From a virus: DNA of 64,000 nucleotides. Where the stretch lies: positions 1 to 64,000 of IMG/VR virus record IMGVR_UViG_3300017963_007659; one strand, given 5' to 3'. Positions 8,086 through 39,236 of this stretch are shown in pieces. Every line of letters begins with the position of its first letter. Position 1 is the first letter of the stretch. The notes beneath the pieces were generated by a model that worked only from the letters and a program-made list of their open reading frames with translations, did no database searches and was not told the DNA's origin. The position numbers and the translations under genes are program-made.

Positions 8086-8952
8086 ATGAGACACGCCAGA
8101 GTAGCCAAGACGGTTCTCAAGCTTCTTGAAGCGGGCTACAAGAATGAAGCTCAACAGCTTCTTCTCTCCTCGATTAGGGCTGCGAGCCAAGGCACACAGA
8201 TGTTGAAGGGCCTCCTCTCCTACCTGTCCATGTCAGAACTTGATCGTCACATTGAACTGATATACGGGTCAGAATTCTTTGTGAGAGAGTATTCGTCAGT
8301 CATCCAACAGACTCTTGCAGACCCTAAAGTTTCTCCGAAAGCCAAGCAGGAGCTGTCCTCCCTTTCTGATGACACATATCTGACGGAGCTGTCCCAACAG
8401 ACGATCGAAACGGTAGCGAAGCACATTACTGAGAAGGAACTACAACAAATCCTATCCGCTATTGAGAGATATGAACCCGGTGAAACCCCCCTCTGGGCCG
8501 CCGCCAGTCTCAATTCTAACCGTATTCAAAAAGGATGGCTTCTTCATCGAACAAATAATGCCGACCAGATAGAATCAAACGGATTCCTGTATGGGATTGA
8601 GGACATGCGTCTTCTAGCGCTCACAACTCATATAGGAGACGCCTACAAGAAACAGGGGGGCTACAACTTCGCCTTCACACCCAAGGACTTCAAGCACTAC
8701 GGTAGGCGAGGGCATTATGGGGATGAACTAATTCTGTTCTACGCTCCCTATGTCTACATGCACCATTATGCCGATGACGAGCCTCAAGCCGTCTTCTGGG
8801 GGAAAGATGCTGAACACATCCAGCAGGTCTATGAGGATGATGGGTATTACACTATTCTTGTAGAAGACAAAGATGGGGAAGAAGACGAAGTTGAAGTCTC
8901 TGATATAGCGGACCTCATCGATGTGGTAAGAAAATCAACAGGGAAGCGTTAA
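8086..8952 (+). CDS. LEAG-helix family protein B, ADP-ribosyltransferase-like
   Basis: A 288-aa protein: LEAG hairpin (6-24, KLLEAGYKNEA), a helical middle, then an ART-like region from about 147. There GWLLHRTNNADQIESNG has the LH/R plus 'I..xGF' layout of the NAD-binding strand and helix, GYNFAFTP (about 192) corresponds to the Y-F strand, and a QAVFWG segment (about 235) sits near where the third catalytic element is expected. No clean H-Y-E triad can be assigned by eye, so the ART call is tentative. The acidic C-terminus is unlike its neighbours. Starts 8 nt after the previous stop. Confidence 0.65.
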   Translation: MRHARVAKTVLKLLEAGYKNEAQQLLLSSIRAASQGTQMLKGLLSYLSMSELDRHIELIYGSEFFVREYSSVIQQTLADPKVSPKAKQELSSLSDDTYLTELSQQTIETVAKHITEKELQQILSAIERYEPGETPLWAAASLNSNRIQKGWLLHRTNNADQIESNGFLYGIEDMRLLALTTHIGDAYKKQGGYNFAFTPKDFKHYGRRGHYGDELILFYAPYVYMHHYADDEPQAVFWGKDAEHIQQVYEDDGYYTILVEDKDGEEDEVEVSDIADLIDVVRKSTGKR

Positions 8953-8955
8953 GTT

Positions 8956-10149
8956 ATGAATATTCATAAACTTGCCAAAGTCAGTCTTCAGATTCTTGAA
9001 GCGGGCTACAAGAATCACGCTCTCCGTCTCCTCCATGCATCCCTTCACACAGCCGTCTTCTACCGTGAGACACCTGTGGACCCCTCTACCGACGTCGTAG
9101 ACCTCTTCACACGGGACTTGAAGCGTCACCATGACACCCGTAGGAGCTTCATAGAGGTCAAGCCCTTCTTCCGCAACCCCAAGATGTGGGCTCCCTTCCA
9201 AGGCAGAATCAAAGGCGCGGACGAGAAGCACCTCGCCTACTGGGTAGACAAGGCTAAGGACCTCGGTATCGCTCTGGAGAAGTCCCACATGTGGGAATAC
9301 CGTCCTTCCATCCCTGGAGGGATAGGACGTCACTACTTCGTCTCGAAGAGGACCATGGGCCACAGGGAGCTGGTCTTCGTTCTGGAGCTGAACATCTCCT
9401 ACAACCGCTTCGTCCTCTCCATCCGTCCTCTGGAGGAGCTGTACGAAACCACCGTGGAAGACGAGGAAGAGGAAGAGGAGATCTGGGAAGAGTTTCTTGA
9501 AGGTGGGGACATCGACCTCGACGTCTTCAAAAAGAAGGCGGAAGAGGATAAGATCTCCTTCGAGGTTATCAAACTTCTCAATGACGATATCGTCTACTTC
9601 TTCAAGATTGGTGACAAGAAGTACATCGCGGATCTCGACAACGCGGGTAAGGTGCTGACGGGTCTCGAAGCTGAGTCCTGGTTGAACAGCAGCCTCGACA
9701 ACGCGGAGGACCTCACTGAAATCGACCCCGACCTGGACCTCACAGACTTCTGGAATAGCCCTTCAACGCTCTACCACGCGACGGACCACGACAACATCGA
9801 ATCCATCATGGAAAGTGGTCTCCAATTGGAGAGCAAGACCCGTGGGATGACGAACCGTTGGATGGGAGCTTCGGTCTTCACCTCCACCAACCCGGAAGCC
9901 ATCCACTCCTACGGTGATACCATCTTGGAGATCGACACCGAAGCCATGAAGCGAGACGGCTACACTCCCCGTGTCGAATTGGAGCCTGGGATTGTAGAGT
10001 ACGAAGCTGCGCGGAGCCTCCTCTCTTGGTTCGACATGGACGAAGGGGACTATCCCCTGGAAGACCCAGCCAATACGGACGGGGTGGATCGCGAGACGAT
10101 CATCCTGAACGGTCCTGTTCCTGCTAAGTACCTGACGGTCATGGACTGA
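8956..10149 (+). CDS. LEAG-helix family protein C with C-terminal ART-like domain
   Basis: 397 aa in four parts: LEAG hairpin (6-24, QILEAGYKNHA); the shared beta module (about 125-146, RHYFVSKR and ELVFVLEL); an acidic linker (about 165-185); and from about 272 an ADP-ribosyltransferase-like domain. The last shows LYHATDHDNIESIMESGL (His on strand 1, then the helix), SVFTSTNPEA (about 305) and SYGDTILEID, the usual ART order. NAD-dependent transfer to a protein or nucleic acid is plausible. The target is unknown. The start follows the previous stop by 3 nt with a weak ribosome site. Confidence 0.75.
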   Translation: MNIHKLAKVSLQILEAGYKNHALRLLHASLHTAVFYRETPVDPSTDVVDLFTRDLKRHHDTRRSFIEVKPFFRNPKMWAPFQGRIKGADEKHLAYWVDKAKDLGIALEKSHMWEYRPSIPGGIGRHYFVSKRTMGHRELVFVLELNISYNRFVLSIRPLEELYETTVEDEEEEEEIWEEFLEGGDIDLDVFKKKAEEDKISFEVIKLLNDDIVYFFKIGDKKYIADLDNAGKVLTGLEAESWLNSSLDNAEDLTEIDPDLDLTDFWNSPSTLYHATDHDNIESIMESGLQLESKTRGMTNRWMGASVFTSTNPEAIHSYGDTILEIDTEAMKRDGYTPRVELEPGIVEYEAARSLLSWFDMDEGDYPLEDPANTDGVDRETIILNGPVPAKYLTVMD

Positions 10150-10179: not shown

Positions 10180-11757
10180 ATGACTCTGTATTTCCACAAA
10201 ATTGCGACCATAGCGACCAAGCTTCTTGAAGCGGGCTACAAGAATGAGTCTCTCCGTCTCCTTCGTGCCACACTACGCAAGGAGCAGCTACCGGACCAAT
10301 CCCTAGCAGCTCTCATCATAAAGTCCCTCCAGCGAAACCCCACGCAGCGACACTACGCTAGAGAGGTGAAGCGACTCTTGAAGGATGAGCGCTTCTTGGA
10401 GCCCTTCCAGGGGAAGTTTCACGCTCACTCCCCCATGCAGAACGTGTACTACACCTACGACGTCCTTTCTCTGCTCAAAGAGTTGAAGTCCTCGCAGGTC
10501 TGGCGACCCATCCAACCTGCACCTGGAGCCCAACCTGGTATCCACTACGTGACCACGAAGGTCTTCGGTGGGGACAGCGTGGTTCTTGTAGCTGAGGTCC
10601 TAGGGAAGAGGGAAGCGCCTGTGCGGCTCTTCATGTCTCCTCTCGACCAGATAGAAGCGGCGGAAAACGAGTCAAAGGATCCTGTGGAGCTTCTGGAGGA
10701 GCGCTTCCCTGGGAAGGGGTGGAGCGCTGCCCCACTCCTCGTAGATTATACAGGAGAGCGCATCGTCTGTGGAGGTCGTGATCCGCGCTTCGAGAGGCGA
10801 GGGATGGAAGCCTTCGATATGGATGAGCTTGGATTCCCAGGGCTCTACGGAGTCCATGTAGGAGATGCCAACGAGTGGCTTTGTGTCCTCGAACGAGACG
10901 GTTTCTGTGACGGAGACGCCTACATCTACGAGATTGACTTCGAGTCATGGAACCGCAAGCATCCGGACAAGCCTTTTGTTGCCATCGACGACCCCCATCC
11001 TGTGGACAAAGACTCTGTAGGGTGGTCAGCGATCGTCTTCTCCGAGATGAAGACCATACCCGCTGAGATTGTCAAACTGCGAGAGAAGATCCCCTTCCAG
11101 AAGGTCCTTGAGGAGTGCGACCCCGAAGCTGCCTACGATGAGTATGGCGAGCCTACAGAATGGTATGGGTCTTCCCAACGAGTCCCCGTTTACTCCTCCT
11201 TGGTCTATCTCTCCCGCACCAAGCACAGAGGACTCAACTCCGAGTGTGATAGGGTCCAAGACCTCACCCAGGAGGTCAAGGATGGAGACCGTTCAGCTAT
11301 CCAGCAGGCAGCCTCCATGCTCGCGCACCATCCTGGGTTGAGGGGCTTCAAGGGTTGGGTCGTACCAGCTCCTCGGTCCAAGGCGGGTAGTCCCTCGAAC
11401 ATGGTGCTCGCCAAAACTCTTGTAGACCAAGGGATTGGCGTCAAGGCTGTAGATATGGTCCAGAGGATCAAGGATATCGAGTCTTCAAGAATGAGGCGAA
11501 GAGACAAAGGTGTGGATGGCGGGACGACTCTTGAAGAGCACTTGCAATCGATGGGCTTTGTTGGTAGAGTAGCAGACCAAGGGGTGCTCATCGTGGATGA
11601 CATCTTCACCACCGGAGCTACTCTCAAAGCGGTCGCTCTGACGATGCGTAAAGCGGGCTACAAGAGTCCTATCTCCGCTGCTGCCCTTGGGTACTACAGA
11701 CCAGACGCGCGCAGTGCCGAGGACTGTCCCGTCCACCACAGAACCTTCTACGTGTAA
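10180..11757 (+). CDS. LEAG-helix family protein D with C-terminal phosphoribosyltransferase domain
   Basis: 525 aa. LEAG hairpin (about 8-26, KLLEAGYKNES), the shared beta module (about 120-140, IHYVTTK and SVVLVAEV), a middle domain (about 185-320) with possible distant ART-like features (GLYGVHVGDANEW; AIVFSE), then a type I phosphoribosyltransferase domain (about 385-525). The PRPP loop is clear: VLIVDDIFTTGATL near 469-482, with two acidic residues followed by TTGAT. It resembles ComF-type PRTases. The fusion of an effector-like N-terminus to a PRTase is unusual. It may act in nucleotide salvage or use PRPP in modification. It begins close to an AGTTATCT element. Confidence 0.8.
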   Translation: MTLYFHKIATIATKLLEAGYKNESLRLLRATLRKEQLPDQSLAALIIKSLQRNPTQRHYAREVKRLLKDERFLEPFQGKFHAHSPMQNVYYTYDVLSLLKELKSSQVWRPIQPAPGAQPGIHYVTTKVFGGDSVVLVAEVLGKREAPVRLFMSPLDQIEAAENESKDPVELLEERFPGKGWSAAPLLVDYTGERIVCGGRDPRFERRGMEAFDMDELGFPGLYGVHVGDANEWLCVLERDGFCDGDAYIYEIDFESWNRKHPDKPFVAIDDPHPVDKDSVGWSAIVFSEMKTIPAEIVKLREKIPFQKVLEECDPEAAYDEYGEPTEWYGSSQRVPVYSSLVYLSRTKHRGLNSECDRVQDLTQEVKDGDRSAIQQAASMLAHHPGLRGFKGWVVPAPRSKAGSPSNMVLAKTLVDQGIGVKAVDMVQRIKDIESSRMRRRDKGVDGGTTLEEHLQSMGFVGRVADQGVLIVDDIFTTGATLKAVALTMRKAGYKSPISAAALGYYRPDARSAEDCPVHHRTFYV

Positions 11758-16339: not shown

Positions 16340-18553
16340 ATGGCACACGTCAGAAACACAGACATCTTCCGTTGGGTTCATCACTACCTGGAGACGGTAG
16401 CTCATCCTTCCTTCAAGGATTTCGATTCCTACGAAGATCTCGACGATCAAGAAGAGAGCTACGCCGAAGAGGTCGTGGGGAAGATCCTCCGACATGTGGG
16501 GCAACCTGAAGGCACCCCCAGATTCTTCCCGGAGAGGATTGGAGAAGGAGCTGACGCTGAAGTCTACTGGCTCGCCAACAAACGCAAAGTCCTCAAGCTC
16601 ACGGTCTCCGAAGACGACGCCAAAGCCCTAGCATACTTCAAGAAACACCCAGACAAGGGTATCGTGAAGGTCTACGACGTCTTCTCTATCCCAGACACGT
16701 TTCTCTATGGAATCGTCATGGAGAAGCTCACCCCATCTGATAAACACTGGCAGGAGATCGCGGAGCGCATCTCCTTCGCTGGTAGGGGTGGCTTCTTTTT
16801 GAGCATGAAATGGTTCGAGGGGCAGCTCCTACCAGCTATCCAAAAGAGAAGGGAACGAGGAGTCGGTGGTCCTTTCATGGACGCGATGACCCCGGAGAAC
16901 ATCGAAGTCATCCATCATTGGTGTGAGGTGCTGGACAAAGCTGGAATCAAATGGGCTGATATGCACGACGAGAACGTGATGTTCCGGGGACGGCAGCCTG
17001 TCCTCATGGATTTGGGGAGATCGACGGGAGCAACTGGACGCATCCCTCAGATGAAAGCTGCGGCGATTCTTGAAGCTCGCAAGGCTCAACCCATCGATGG
17101 GAAGATCGTCTCCAAGAAGGTGCTGGGGATGATCCTCCGTCACTTCCTCACAGAGAAGATGTACGAGGAGCACGTCCCTACAATGTACCAGGACATGCTC
17201 CCCTACAAGAGATGGAAGCACGAGAACGAGAGAGCCATCGCGGATGGGGTGCACTACGACGAGAATGGTCCTCTGGTCAACGTCTACACCGGCACCTTCT
17301 TCCTGGATGACCTCGACCTCTTCAAGAATTTCCACGCCTTTCTCGAAAAGACAGTCAAAGGATGGGGATGGTATGTGCTGCGCGCCAATCTACCACAGCA
17401 AGAAGGGAAGCCCTACTCCGTGGACTTGGCACCGAACTACGGGACTCTTGTAGAGGACGTCCCTCCCAAGCTCTACCATCTTGCTCTCAAAGAAGATCTC
17501 CCCAGCATCCGACGCAAGGGTCTTATCCCCATGAAGGGGCGTGAGCACGGTGTGACGGTGCGTGGCTATCCAGATAGGGTCTACTTCGCCCGAAGCATGA
17601 ACGTCGTCTACGACCTGCATGAAGGCTTCCTGGGACGCAACTATGAGGAGGAGGGGAAGTACGCGGTCATCACCATCGATACCCACAAGCTGAGAAGGGG
17701 CACGAAGTTCTACGACGACCCGGAAATGCCCCAAGGCTACAGCATGTGGACCTACACGCACGTACCGAAGGAAGCGATTCTTGAAGTGCGTGACATGATG
17801 ACGGAGGAGAGGCTAGCGCAGCTCGTAGAAGCCAGGAAGATTCAACCGCTCTCCAAGGAGTTCGTAGAGAAGAAGCTCTCCGACCTCATCCCGGAATTCC
17901 TCTTCACCCCTGACAACTACAAGACTGTAGAGAGGAAGTACCCAGACCTCTTCGATTACGACACCTGGAGAACCGACGGAATTCAGTATAGTCAGGAAGG
18001 GGTATTCGAGCACAAGAACAAGGTCTCGGCCAATATAGGTACGCATTCGCTCGACCCCTATTTCTTCAAGAATCTCGTCGCTTACCTCGAACCGAAGCTC
18101 AAAGGTTGGGGGTGGTATATTCTCTCCTTACAAATGCCGAAGGACGACTATGACTTCATGAATCTCCAAGTAGCGCCGAACTACGGCACGCAGCTCAAGA
18201 CTCCCCGCTACCTCTACCACATCACCCCGAAGAGTAATATGGAGAGAATCAAGCGCAAGGGGTTCATCCCGAGACCAGCTCGCCAGCACGGAGACGCACA
18301 GCGACGGCAGTATCCAGATAGAGTCTACTTCGGGACTCAATACAGCACTGTCGAGAAGCTCTACAAGGAATTTGTCATCCACGGCGAGAAGGAATCCTAT
18401 GTTCTCTTCATCGTACAGGGAAGCCGCATCCCCAAGAACGTCAAGTTCTACGAGGATCCAGAAATGCCTATGGGTTCGAGCGCATGGACCTACACACACA
18501 TCCCGGCCACCGCTATCGTTGGGATGGAAGATGCTGAGACGGCTTTCAACTAA
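16340..18553 (+). CDS. Kinase-like 13 fused to two ART-like repeats
   Basis: 737 aa. Residues 1-240 are a full kinase-like unit (GEGADAEVY, Lys near 86, DMHDEN near 207, MDLGRS, tail RIPQM). Two tandem repeats of about 245 aa follow. Each starts with an EARKxQPL/I-D-type linker and a helical preamble containing KGWGWY and APNYGT, and each ends in an ADP-ribosyltransferase-like core: LYHLALKEDLPSIRRKGL / RVYFAR / MWTYTHVP (about 378-470) and LYHITPKSNMERIKRKGF / RVYFGT / AWTYTHIP (about 623-720). The His-first and Tyr-Phe strands are clear; the third catalytic residue is not. A phosphotransferase joined to ADP-ribosylating units in one chain is striking. Confidence 0.85.
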   Translation: MAHVRNTDIFRWVHHYLETVAHPSFKDFDSYEDLDDQEESYAEEVVGKILRHVGQPEGTPRFFPERIGEGADAEVYWLANKRKVLKLTVSEDDAKALAYFKKHPDKGIVKVYDVFSIPDTFLYGIVMEKLTPSDKHWQEIAERISFAGRGGFFLSMKWFEGQLLPAIQKRRERGVGGPFMDAMTPENIEVIHHWCEVLDKAGIKWADMHDENVMFRGRQPVLMDLGRSTGATGRIPQMKAAAILEARKAQPIDGKIVSKKVLGMILRHFLTEKMYEEHVPTMYQDMLPYKRWKHENERAIADGVHYDENGPLVNVYTGTFFLDDLDLFKNFHAFLEKTVKGWGWYVLRANLPQQEGKPYSVDLAPNYGTLVEDVPPKLYHLALKEDLPSIRRKGLIPMKGREHGVTVRGYPDRVYFARSMNVVYDLHEGFLGRNYEEEGKYAVITIDTHKLRRGTKFYDDPEMPQGYSMWTYTHVPKEAILEVRDMMTEERLAQLVEARKIQPLSKEFVEKKLSDLIPEFLFTPDNYKTVERKYPDLFDYDTWRTDGIQYSQEGVFEHKNKVSANIGTHSLDPYFFKNLVAYLEPKLKGWGWYILSLQMPKDDYDFMNLQVAPNYGTQLKTPRYLYHITPKSNMERIKRKGFIPRPARQHGDAQRRQYPDRVYFGTQYSTVEKLYKEFVIHGEKESYVLFIVQGSRIPKNVKFYEDPEMPMGSSAWTYTHIPATAIVGMEDAETAFN

Positions 18554-23875: not shown

Positions 23876-25414
23876 ATGCCTCCATGCTCTTCTAACACAG
23901 ACTACTATGTGTATAGTCTCTGTTATCCTGATCGACGTCTATATGTAGGGGAAGAGACAGAACCTTTGCCTTTTTATATTGGAAAGGGAAAGGGAGAACG
24001 TCTCAACCAACATGTAGTTGAATCCCACAGAAAAAACCAGGATGGGAGTTGGCGCTACAAGGGAAGAAAAGCCAACACGGTGCGCAAACTCGTTCGTGAA
24101 GGCAAACGACCCTTGGTAGTCAAGCTCGAAGACAACCTGACCGAAGAGGAAGCCTACGAACTGGAGTGCATGCTAGTAAAGGCTTTTGGTCGCCGAGATC
24201 TTGGTACAGGCATTCTGTGTAACCATGCGGACGGAGGTATTGGGCCTGTTGGTGTTTCTGAGGAAACTCGAAGACGGATGGGTGATTGGCAAGTAGGGCG
24301 AACAAGGTCTGAGACAACCAAAAGAAGAATACGAGAGACAAAAGCCAAAAACCCTTACGTTTTTACGGACGAAGACCTCCAGAAGATGGCTGAAAACTCC
24401 AGGAACAGGGTTTGGACTGACGAGTCTCGTAAAAAGTTGAGTGAGTCCCTCAAGGGACGAACCTTCACGGAAGATCATCGAGCCAAAATTAGTGCTTCAA
24501 AAAAGAACGCTAATTATCCGCCAGAAACCTATGAAAAGTCTACAGCCACACGTAAAGCCAAGCAGAGGGTTGCGAACGACGTCTTCAAACTCCTGTATTT
24601 GCTAGAAAAAGAGACGAAGTTCTCTCGCAAAGCCCTGTCCCTTCAAGAATTAGAAGCCTGGTGTGCCCAACTCCACCAAGAATTTGAGTCTCTTCCAGAA
24701 GAAAAAAGGGCAACCCTACAAGAATATTGGAAAATACGTCAAGCCTCTCCCAATGGAGGACTCACGGTTGCTCGACGGCGTAAAGAAGAGTTGTTCCAAG
24801 AAGGTGCGCCCTTAGTATGGAAGCTTCAAGTAGCAGCTCCTCAGAAGAACGAATCCTTGAAAACCTGGAAAGCCTTTGTAACAGAGGCACAGAAAATGCT
24901 CTCAGCTCTTCCAAAACAGGAGCAGGACCTTCTTGACGACGCTTGGTTGCAGCATGTCGAGCAGGAGAGTCACCTAGATAGTACCCCACATGAACGAAAT
25001 AGGCGCGCTCAAAAGGAGCAGGCACAGACTAAACGTATTCTTGTAGCGAAGACTCTCGATCTTATCGTTATGCTCCAAGCGCCCCTTCCTACTCTCTCAA
25101 AAAAAGGCCCTCTGAAACAATGGGAAACCCTACATAAAAAGTACAGCCAGCAGTATGAGAGTCTCTCTGCGGTAGAGAAGCACGACGCGGAGTATATTCT
25201 TGAAGAGCACAAGAAAGAGGTTAATTCTCATAAGAGAGGTGCCTCTCCAGCACGGACTGCTGGTGTTCAGAATTATTGGGATCGTAAAAAGTCCTTAATG
25301 AAAAAAGCTGAAGAGTTATCACGTAGGCATCCAACCGTATCTCTCCCGAAGAAACGCGCTTCTGAGAAGGAGTGGAGAGATATAATAAAACATCTGGAAG
25401 CGTTGGGAGAATAG
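23876..25414 (+). CDS. GIY-YIG homing-endonuclease-like protein with NUMOD3-like motifs
   Basis: 512 aa. The GIY-YIG nuclease core occupies about 8-115: YYVYSL, then LPFYIGKGKGERLNQH with the catalytic Arg, and an AYELECMLVKAFG helix with the conserved Glu. Downstream are NUMOD3-like DNA-binding repeats (SEETRRRMG..., DESRKKLSESLKGRTFTEDHRAKIS), typical of phage homing enzymes. The remaining 280 aa are a long charged helical region that I do not recognise and that is atypical for the class. AT-richer than neighbours, and it sits between virion genes, as expected for a freestanding mobile nuclease. Confidence 0.85.
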   Translation: MPPCSSNTDYYVYSLCYPDRRLYVGEETEPLPFYIGKGKGERLNQHVVESHRKNQDGSWRYKGRKANTVRKLVREGKRPLVVKLEDNLTEEEAYELECMLVKAFGRRDLGTGILCNHADGGIGPVGVSEETRRRMGDWQVGRTRSETTKRRIRETKAKNPYVFTDEDLQKMAENSRNRVWTDESRKKLSESLKGRTFTEDHRAKISASKKNANYPPETYEKSTATRKAKQRVANDVFKLLYLLEKETKFSRKALSLQELEAWCAQLHQEFESLPEEKRATLQEYWKIRQASPNGGLTVARRRKEELFQEGAPLVWKLQVAAPQKNESLKTWKAFVTEAQKMLSALPKQEQDLLDDAWLQHVEQESHLDSTPHERNRRAQKEQAQTKRILVAKTLDLIVMLQAPLPTLSKKGPLKQWETLHKKYSQQYESLSAVEKHDAEYILEEHKKEVNSHKRGASPARTAGVQNYWDRKKSLMKKAEELSRRHPTVSLPKKRASEKEWRDIIKHLEALGE

Positions 25415-37832: not shown

Positions 37833-37846
37833 GTATGTAGGGAGAT

Positions 37847-38359
37847 ATGACGATGGAGAAAACTATCTACAGCCTGATTTCAACCATTCTTGTAGGATTA
37901 CTTGTAGTTGCTGGCTGCGGAGCTGAACCACGCTCCCAGGACGACCCCTTCGATGCCGATGTGGAAGAAGACGGAGATGTGGAGTCTGACGCCTCAGATG
38001 GAGATGCGGACGGAGACTCTGACGGCGATGCGGACGGCGAAGGAGGCCCAGACTACGAGGGGGATGAACCTGGAGAGTGTGACGACGGAGCTGACAACGA
38101 CCGTGACGGTCTCTTCGATTGTGATGACGATGGCTGTGCTGGTAGCCCCGTCTGCGATCAAACAGATGGAGATGCGGATGCTGACTCTGATGGCGACAGC
38201 GATGGCGATGGCGACGGGGATTCAGATAGTGACTCCGACGCTGATGAAGATGAGGACGTTGACGAGGAGGAGGAAGACGCAGACATCGACGAAGATGTAG
38301 GAGGACGAAGAGGAGGAGCCGTGCGGAGGCTGTTCCACAGGCTTCACCTGCTGCGATGA
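37847..38359 (+). pseudogene. Lipoprotein with Asp/Gly-rich stalk, 5' part of a frameshifted gene
   Basis: Residues 1-24 are a lipoprotein signal peptide with lipobox LVVAGC, so the mature protein would be lipidated at Cys24 and surface-attached. A stalk of D-G-D/D-A-D-G units (about 32-160, with DDGADNDRDGLFDCDDDGC, a calcium-loop-like segment) follows. Near 38300 the frame changes: this frame runs to an Arg-rich nonsense end, whereas the +1 frame continues as E-E-E-P-C-G-G-C-S and joins the Cys-rich part at 38388. Removing one G near 38300-38307 would restore one long protein. This composition is typical of secreted proteins of Myxococcota-like bacteria. The shift may be a real mutation, an assembly error or programmed. 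Confidence 0.75.
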
Positions 38360-38387
38360 TCGCTGTGTAGCTCTAGATGTCGATGAG

Positions 38388-39236
38388 ATGAACTGCGGAG
38401 GTTGTGGCCTCCAGTGTGGCTCCGGAACGGACTGTGTCTCAGGGGAGTGTCTCTGTAGCTGGACTCTTCATGGAACGGACCTCTCCATCGTCTGTGACCC
38501 CGGAGCCGGTTGCTGCGTCAGCGATACCACGGGCATGGGGGAATGTGTGAACCTACGAATCGGAGCCCTCGACGACGACAATTGGGAAGAGACTACCCAC
38601 TGTGGTACCTGCAACAATAGCTGTAATGGCTGGTCCTGTCGGGAAGGGGAATGCTGCTTCGAGTATGACCCCGCGACTTGGGAGACCTGGGATGAGTGTC
38701 CTACCCCTGAGCACATGTTGACTCCAGACTGTGGTGGCGACTGTGGTCCAGACGGTACCTGCTGCGGAGACCGCTGCGTGGATACGGAACAGGACGAGAT
38801 GAACTGTGGTGGTTGCGGTCGAGAGTGCGGGGATGGAGCTACCTGTGTTGAAGGCGTGTGCCGCTGTCTACAATCGAGCGGCTATGAGGAAGGTGTCGAC
38901 TGTCGGTCATGGGGAGCGTGCTGCCGAGAAGGCTGGATAGGGGAACCCCGCTGTGTGGATATCATCGATGGGGTGAGCAGCGGTGGTGGAGATGTCACAC
39001 ATTGTGGTGGATGCGGAACCGTCTGCTACTACATCGATGAACCCCCTTACGATAGCGCGCAAGAGTGCGTTGACGCAATGTGTTATGTTGAGACGGATGC
39101 TGGCTATTGTACTCGTGACACGGACTGTCCTGATCCTCCTGCCTGGTTGTTTGACACCTCGACTCCTACTGTAGAATGCAGAGCAACGCGCTGCGTCGTG
39201 ACCTATCCTCCCTACGGTGCTCCTTTCGGCGGCTGA
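38388..39236 (+). pseudogene. Cys-rich 3' part of the frameshifted lipoprotein gene
   Basis: 282 aa from the first ATG, but the coding frame is open upstream to about 38305 and reads CSTGFTCCDDRCVALDVDEM before it. It contains at least three NCGGCG-type units (NCGGCGLQCGSGTDC, NCGGCGRECGDGATC, HCGGCGTVC) with CCGDRCVDTEQDEMNC connectors, a disulphide-rich extracellular repeat of deltaproteobacterial surface proteins. No independent ribosome site precedes 38388, supporting a single original gene. Probable role: surface or virion-exposed protein, perhaps taken from a host. Confidence 0.75.

Follow-up and report, generated by a model that had tools for sequence, protein, structure and literature searches.

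A STIG1-type lipoprotein gene carried by a jumbo phage and probably split in its acidic stalk by a one-base indel

The phage record

The gene described here lies in the IMG/VR phage record IMGVR_UViG_3300017963_007659, a linear sequence of 186,314 bp with a GC content of 0.52, of which the first 64 kb constitute the window that was analysed. The window carries genes for a DNA polymerase, a terminase, a portal-like protein and tail or virion proteins, and the lipoprotein gene sits in a region rich in tail genes. Through the terminase, another IMG/VR contig of this virus was found, i.e., IMGVR_UViG_3300017971_000328, of 55,887 bp; it overlaps positions 155168-186308 of the record and extends 24.7 kb past its end. 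Since this extension does not match the start of the record, the phage genome must be at least about 211 kb long. The carrier of the lipoprotein gene is a jumbo phage.

Several other genes of this phage deserve mention. Nineteen divergent kinase-like paralogs of approx. 220-290 residues, mostly in tandem, are found at positions 2137-28933 of the window and at 147254-148057 of the record (minus strand); a weak match to Pkinase was detected for one of them (E 3.9e-4). Such an expanded array within one phage is striking. Within the array lies the gene of a 525-residue protein (window 10180-11757) whose C-terminal part is a phosphoribosyltransferase domain (PF00156). A fusion of 737 residues (window 16340-18553) joins a kinase-like domain to a region weakly similar to the RNA 2'-phosphotransferase Tpt1/KptA (E 1.9e-4, below the cut-off); a similar stretch is apparently repeated in its C-terminal half, and by eye positions 8086-10149 seem related. 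Upstream of the tail-like genes, positions 23876-25414 of the window encode a GIY-YIG homing-endonuclease-like protein with a NUMOD3 motif.

Architecture of the lipoprotein locus

The locus consists of two overlapping open reading frames on the same strand, frame A and the second, or +1, frame, whose features are collected in Table 1. Frame A (37847-38359) encodes 170 residues that begin with MTMEKTIYSLISTILVGLLVVAGC, continue to DADEDEDVDEEEEDADIDEDV and end in the non-native basic tail GGRRGGAVRRLFHRLHLLR. As judged from sequence and pattern, MTMEKTIYSLISTILVGLLVVAGC has the traits of an SPII lipoprotein signal, i.e., an n-region with Lys, a hydrophobic stretch and a lipobox ending in Cys; no other convincing lipobox ORF was found in the pieces of the record that were scanned. 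The stalk resembles the acidic double-disulfide repeat of NCBIfam NF033662 (E 2.4e-7), with a score of 30.4 bits that lies below the curated cut-off of 41. Past the codon GTA at 38297-38299, frame A encodes the basic tail, which does not resemble the rest.

The +1 frame is closed upstream by the TAG at 38298-38300 and is open from there to the end of the gene. It begins with EDEEEEPCGGCSTGFTCC, which carries on naturally from the acidic stalk and leads into the first cysteine unit, and it shows no further stop or indel across its 311 codons. An open run of this length was not obtained in any of 3000 simulated sequences of 1390 nt with the same dinucleotide make-up, where the median was 83 codons and the maximum 213. 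The whole head matches Stig1 (PF04885) with 36.1 bits, above the gathering score of 24.1, and its two units, compared with each other starting at the first Cys, are 39% identical. No ATG, GTG or TTG is present in this frame between 38301 and 38388; the earliest start is the ATG at 38388, which is located inside the first STIG1 unit and is not accompanied by a signal peptide.

Table 1. Features of the split lipoprotein gene (positions in the window)
Feature	Position	Strand	Basis
Shine-Dalgarno-like AGGGAG before the ATG	37839-37844	+	sequence
Lipoprotein signal peptide ending in lipobox V-A-G-C (codon of Cys24 at 37916-37918)	37847-37918	+	sequence, pattern
Asp/Gly/Glu-rich stalk, frame A	37919-38297	+	translation
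Acidic double-disulfide-like repeat within the stalk (one copy)	38075-38155	+	NF033662, sub-threshold
Stretch in which frame A gives way to the +1 frame, including the +1-frame TAG (38298-38300)	~38297-38318	+	sequence, codon log-odds
Out-of-frame basic tail GGRRGGAVRRLFHRLHLLR and TGA stop (38357-38359), frame A	38298-38359	+	translation
Cys-rich head, +1 frame, 311 codons and stop; begins EDEEEEPCGGCSTGFTCCDDRCV	38301-39236	+	translation, Pfam, simulation
STIG1 unit 1	38319-38450	+	PF04885, 27.3 bits (cut-off 24.1)
STIG1 unit 2	38727-38864	+	PF04885, 30.9 bits (cut-off 24.1)

Both frames are open over 56 nt (38301-38356). In the +1 frame, acidic residues are again encoded from 38301 and the first Cys motif follows at about 38319; for the acidic linker and this motif both to be native, the change of frame must fall within the short stretch given in Table 1. 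The codon log-odds of frame A fall from +12.6 in the scoring interval at 38235 to negative values from 38280 onward. The open frames, the log-odds, the simulation and the PF04885 matches thus bear out an earlier note on this DNA, which had described a lipoprotein gene with signal peptide, lipobox and stalk in one frame and Cys-rich repeats in the +1 frame, and had located the join near 38300-38307. It had also observed that the removal of one G joins the two frames; this is correct, but it is one of several equivalent one-base changes, and the extra base is not identifiable from the sequence.

Relatives of the head and their gene organization

A search with an exact pattern gave a match in Polyangiaceae, which led to a group of relatives in Myxococcota. 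These are STIG1 (PF04885) lipoproteins that share with the phage gene a lipobox, a low-complexity and often Asp/Gly-rich linker, and units of the type NCGGCG..C..G..C..G.C; the stalk and the head of the phage gene are complementary halves of a known architecture. The phage gene differs from them in being carried by a phage, in its very acidic stalk and in its split over two frames in this record. Counting only the Myxococcota matches whose N-terminal region lay inside the fetched DNA, lipobox, linker and STIG1 units are found in a single frame in about 17 of 19 relatives, 13 of them recognized by pattern and four by eye (L018, L025, L029 and L044), while L021 and L026 are ambiguous. These one-frame relatives indicate that the split is not part of the family plan, although they are distant (approx. 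50% identity over approx. 50 residues) and the unbroken state is inferred from them.

Among curated families, the best named one for the head is the MXAN_6577-like cysteine-rich protein (NF041328, E 7.7e-12); the score of 45.3 bits is far under the family cut-off of 100, so the head falls outside this family as it is defined. The literature searched for STIG1 in phages and for MXAN_6577 yielded no useful information. No relative of the head was detected in the viral contigs of IMG/VR, either by protein search or by alignment of the repeats, and an exact-DNA search of viral contigs, including a pattern that accepts both lengths at the join, returned no copy of the locus; neither did the use of the neighbouring genes as bait. 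Phage GenBank records gave no match to the head, and the genome contigs inspected by repeat alignment gave pattern matches of which none was confirmed. The surface protein gene looks to have its source in myxobacteria-like hosts, and the protein family points to a host for this phage that would be Myxococcota-like.

Nature of the frame break

The reading that we favour, with a probability of roughly 0.87, is that of a single Myxococcota-type lipoprotein gene, borne by a jumbo phage and split within its stalk by a one-base indel that is not programmed. The ATG at 38388 is 29 bases past the stop of frame A, so that gene-finding software would annotate two genes, one for a headless acidic lipoprotein and another for a downstream Cys-rich protein. 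That these are two separate functional genes is nevertheless improbable. The open frame and the homology of the second part begin before 38388, with the first STIG1 unit already under way from 38319; a start at 38388 would truncate this unit and yield a product of the disulfide type that is devoid of a signal peptide, and frame A for its part terminates in a basic tail that does not resemble the stalk. Because the first available start cuts the first Cys unit and lacks a signal peptide, the two parts are best regarded as having once been one gene. Re-initiation at the TAGGAGG site was also considered and was ruled out, given that no start codon of the second frame exists upstream of 38388.

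The earlier note had proposed, besides a read error or a real inactivation, a programmed shift that switches surface display. Phages do use frameshifting elsewhere, for example in their tail chaperones (PMC10885494), and a +1 shift within the acidic linker, or a hop of the ribosome over a short distance there, could set the ratio of headless to headed lipoprotein; it is precisely the linker that is broken, the head shows no decay, and an SD-like, purine-rich TAGGAGG (38298-38304), the only suggestive element, overlaps the site. Known +1 signals (PMC12421855; PMC10885494) comprise a slippery P-site codon, either CUU-U or a homotriplet, together with stalling in the A site and an SD-like element placed at a defined spacing; the prfB motif requires this element three bases before CTTT-stop (PMC12421855). 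Neither CUU-U nor a homotriplet P-site codon is present in the zone 38301-38356, where no base occurs three times in a row; none of the codons at 38297-38318 permits full re-pairing of the tRNA at +1, in contrast to the prfB control; and there is no pausing stop at the join, the stop of frame A (38357) lying approx. 40 nt past the native join. The phage gene therefore shares with prfB the +1 direction and a nearby SD-like purine stretch, but not the CTTT, the A-site stop codon or the re-pairing P-site tRNA, and no slip site lies at the prfB spacing. Neither CGA nor AGA is a rare codon of the phage (390 and 317 of 42,781 codons), a count that reflects the codon usage of the phage and not the tRNA supply of the host. 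The predicted RNA fold of the zone is no better than that of shuffled sequences (z -0.30), a hop to the only second-frame GGA codon of the zone (38325) would remove the first Cys, and the distant Myxococcota relatives keep one frame. A programmed switch is on this evidence very unlikely, and equally slight is the chance of a +1 recoding of an undescribed kind, in which the purine-rich SD-like linker, with no classical slippery codon, would drive the production of both headless and headed forms from one gene. What stands of the earlier proposal is one lipoprotein gene interrupted within the acidic linker, with read error and real inactivation both compatible with the data; most likely the shift is accidental and there is no built-in switch.

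Since the gene shows no other sign of decay, the break must be recent or artefactual; that the sampled phage had mutated recently and that the consensus is in error were judged to be about equally likely. Taken alone, the second half of this explanation states that the phage gene is intact and that the indel arose purely in the consensus or assembly, which we hold to be somewhat short of an even chance. The undecayed head fits such an error, as do the low-complexity, purine-rich sequence at the site and the isolation of the case, which stands alone among the window's roughly 70 genes; against it, the site has no homopolymer (no run of three or more), and the record and the second contig share 31.1 kb with no indel and with six mismatches, all of them within 50 bases of the record's end. 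That overlap does not span the lipoprotein gene, and it lowers the chance of an assembly error without removing it, as the two assemblies may share reads. All 19 of the kinase-like paralogs match their family profile in one continuous open frame, which indicates that broken genes are not the rule in this phage. A codon-model scan of the record for other frameshifts was too insensitive and flagged mostly gene ends; it missed the frameshift of the lipoprotein gene itself because the Cys-rich head has an unusual codon composition.

Predicted product and possible role

If intact, the gene would encode an exported lipoprotein, lipidated at the lipobox Cys, in which an acidic Asp/Gly stalk would be followed by a disulfide-rich head of two STIG1-type units. 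With the gene split in the stalk by the proposed non-programmed one-base indel, the sequence as it stands would direct the ribosome to a headless lipoprotein of 170 residues with a basic tail, and the head would not be produced in an exported form. The intact protein may alter the surface of the infected cell. Phage lipoproteins that block receptors exist; one of them is Llp of phage T5, described as a small outer-membrane lipoprotein for superinfection exclusion (PMC9586334). As another phage-encoded lipoprotein, Llp is a possible functional analogue of the phage STIG1 protein, which differs from it in its long acidic stalk and Cys-rich head. By this analogy, a role in superinfection exclusion or surface masking is a reasonable guess for the intact protein.

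The frame break is real in the record but ordinary, a single-copy event in a gene that is carried by a phage and belongs to a known kind of lipoprotein, and it serves mainly as a caution against inferring recoding from a single metagenome contig unless reads or relatives support it. Should the phage population carry the gene in intact form, it would represent a surface lipoprotein of the STIG1 type encoded by a jumbo phage, with a head that has no match in the searched phage records or IMG/VR contigs.
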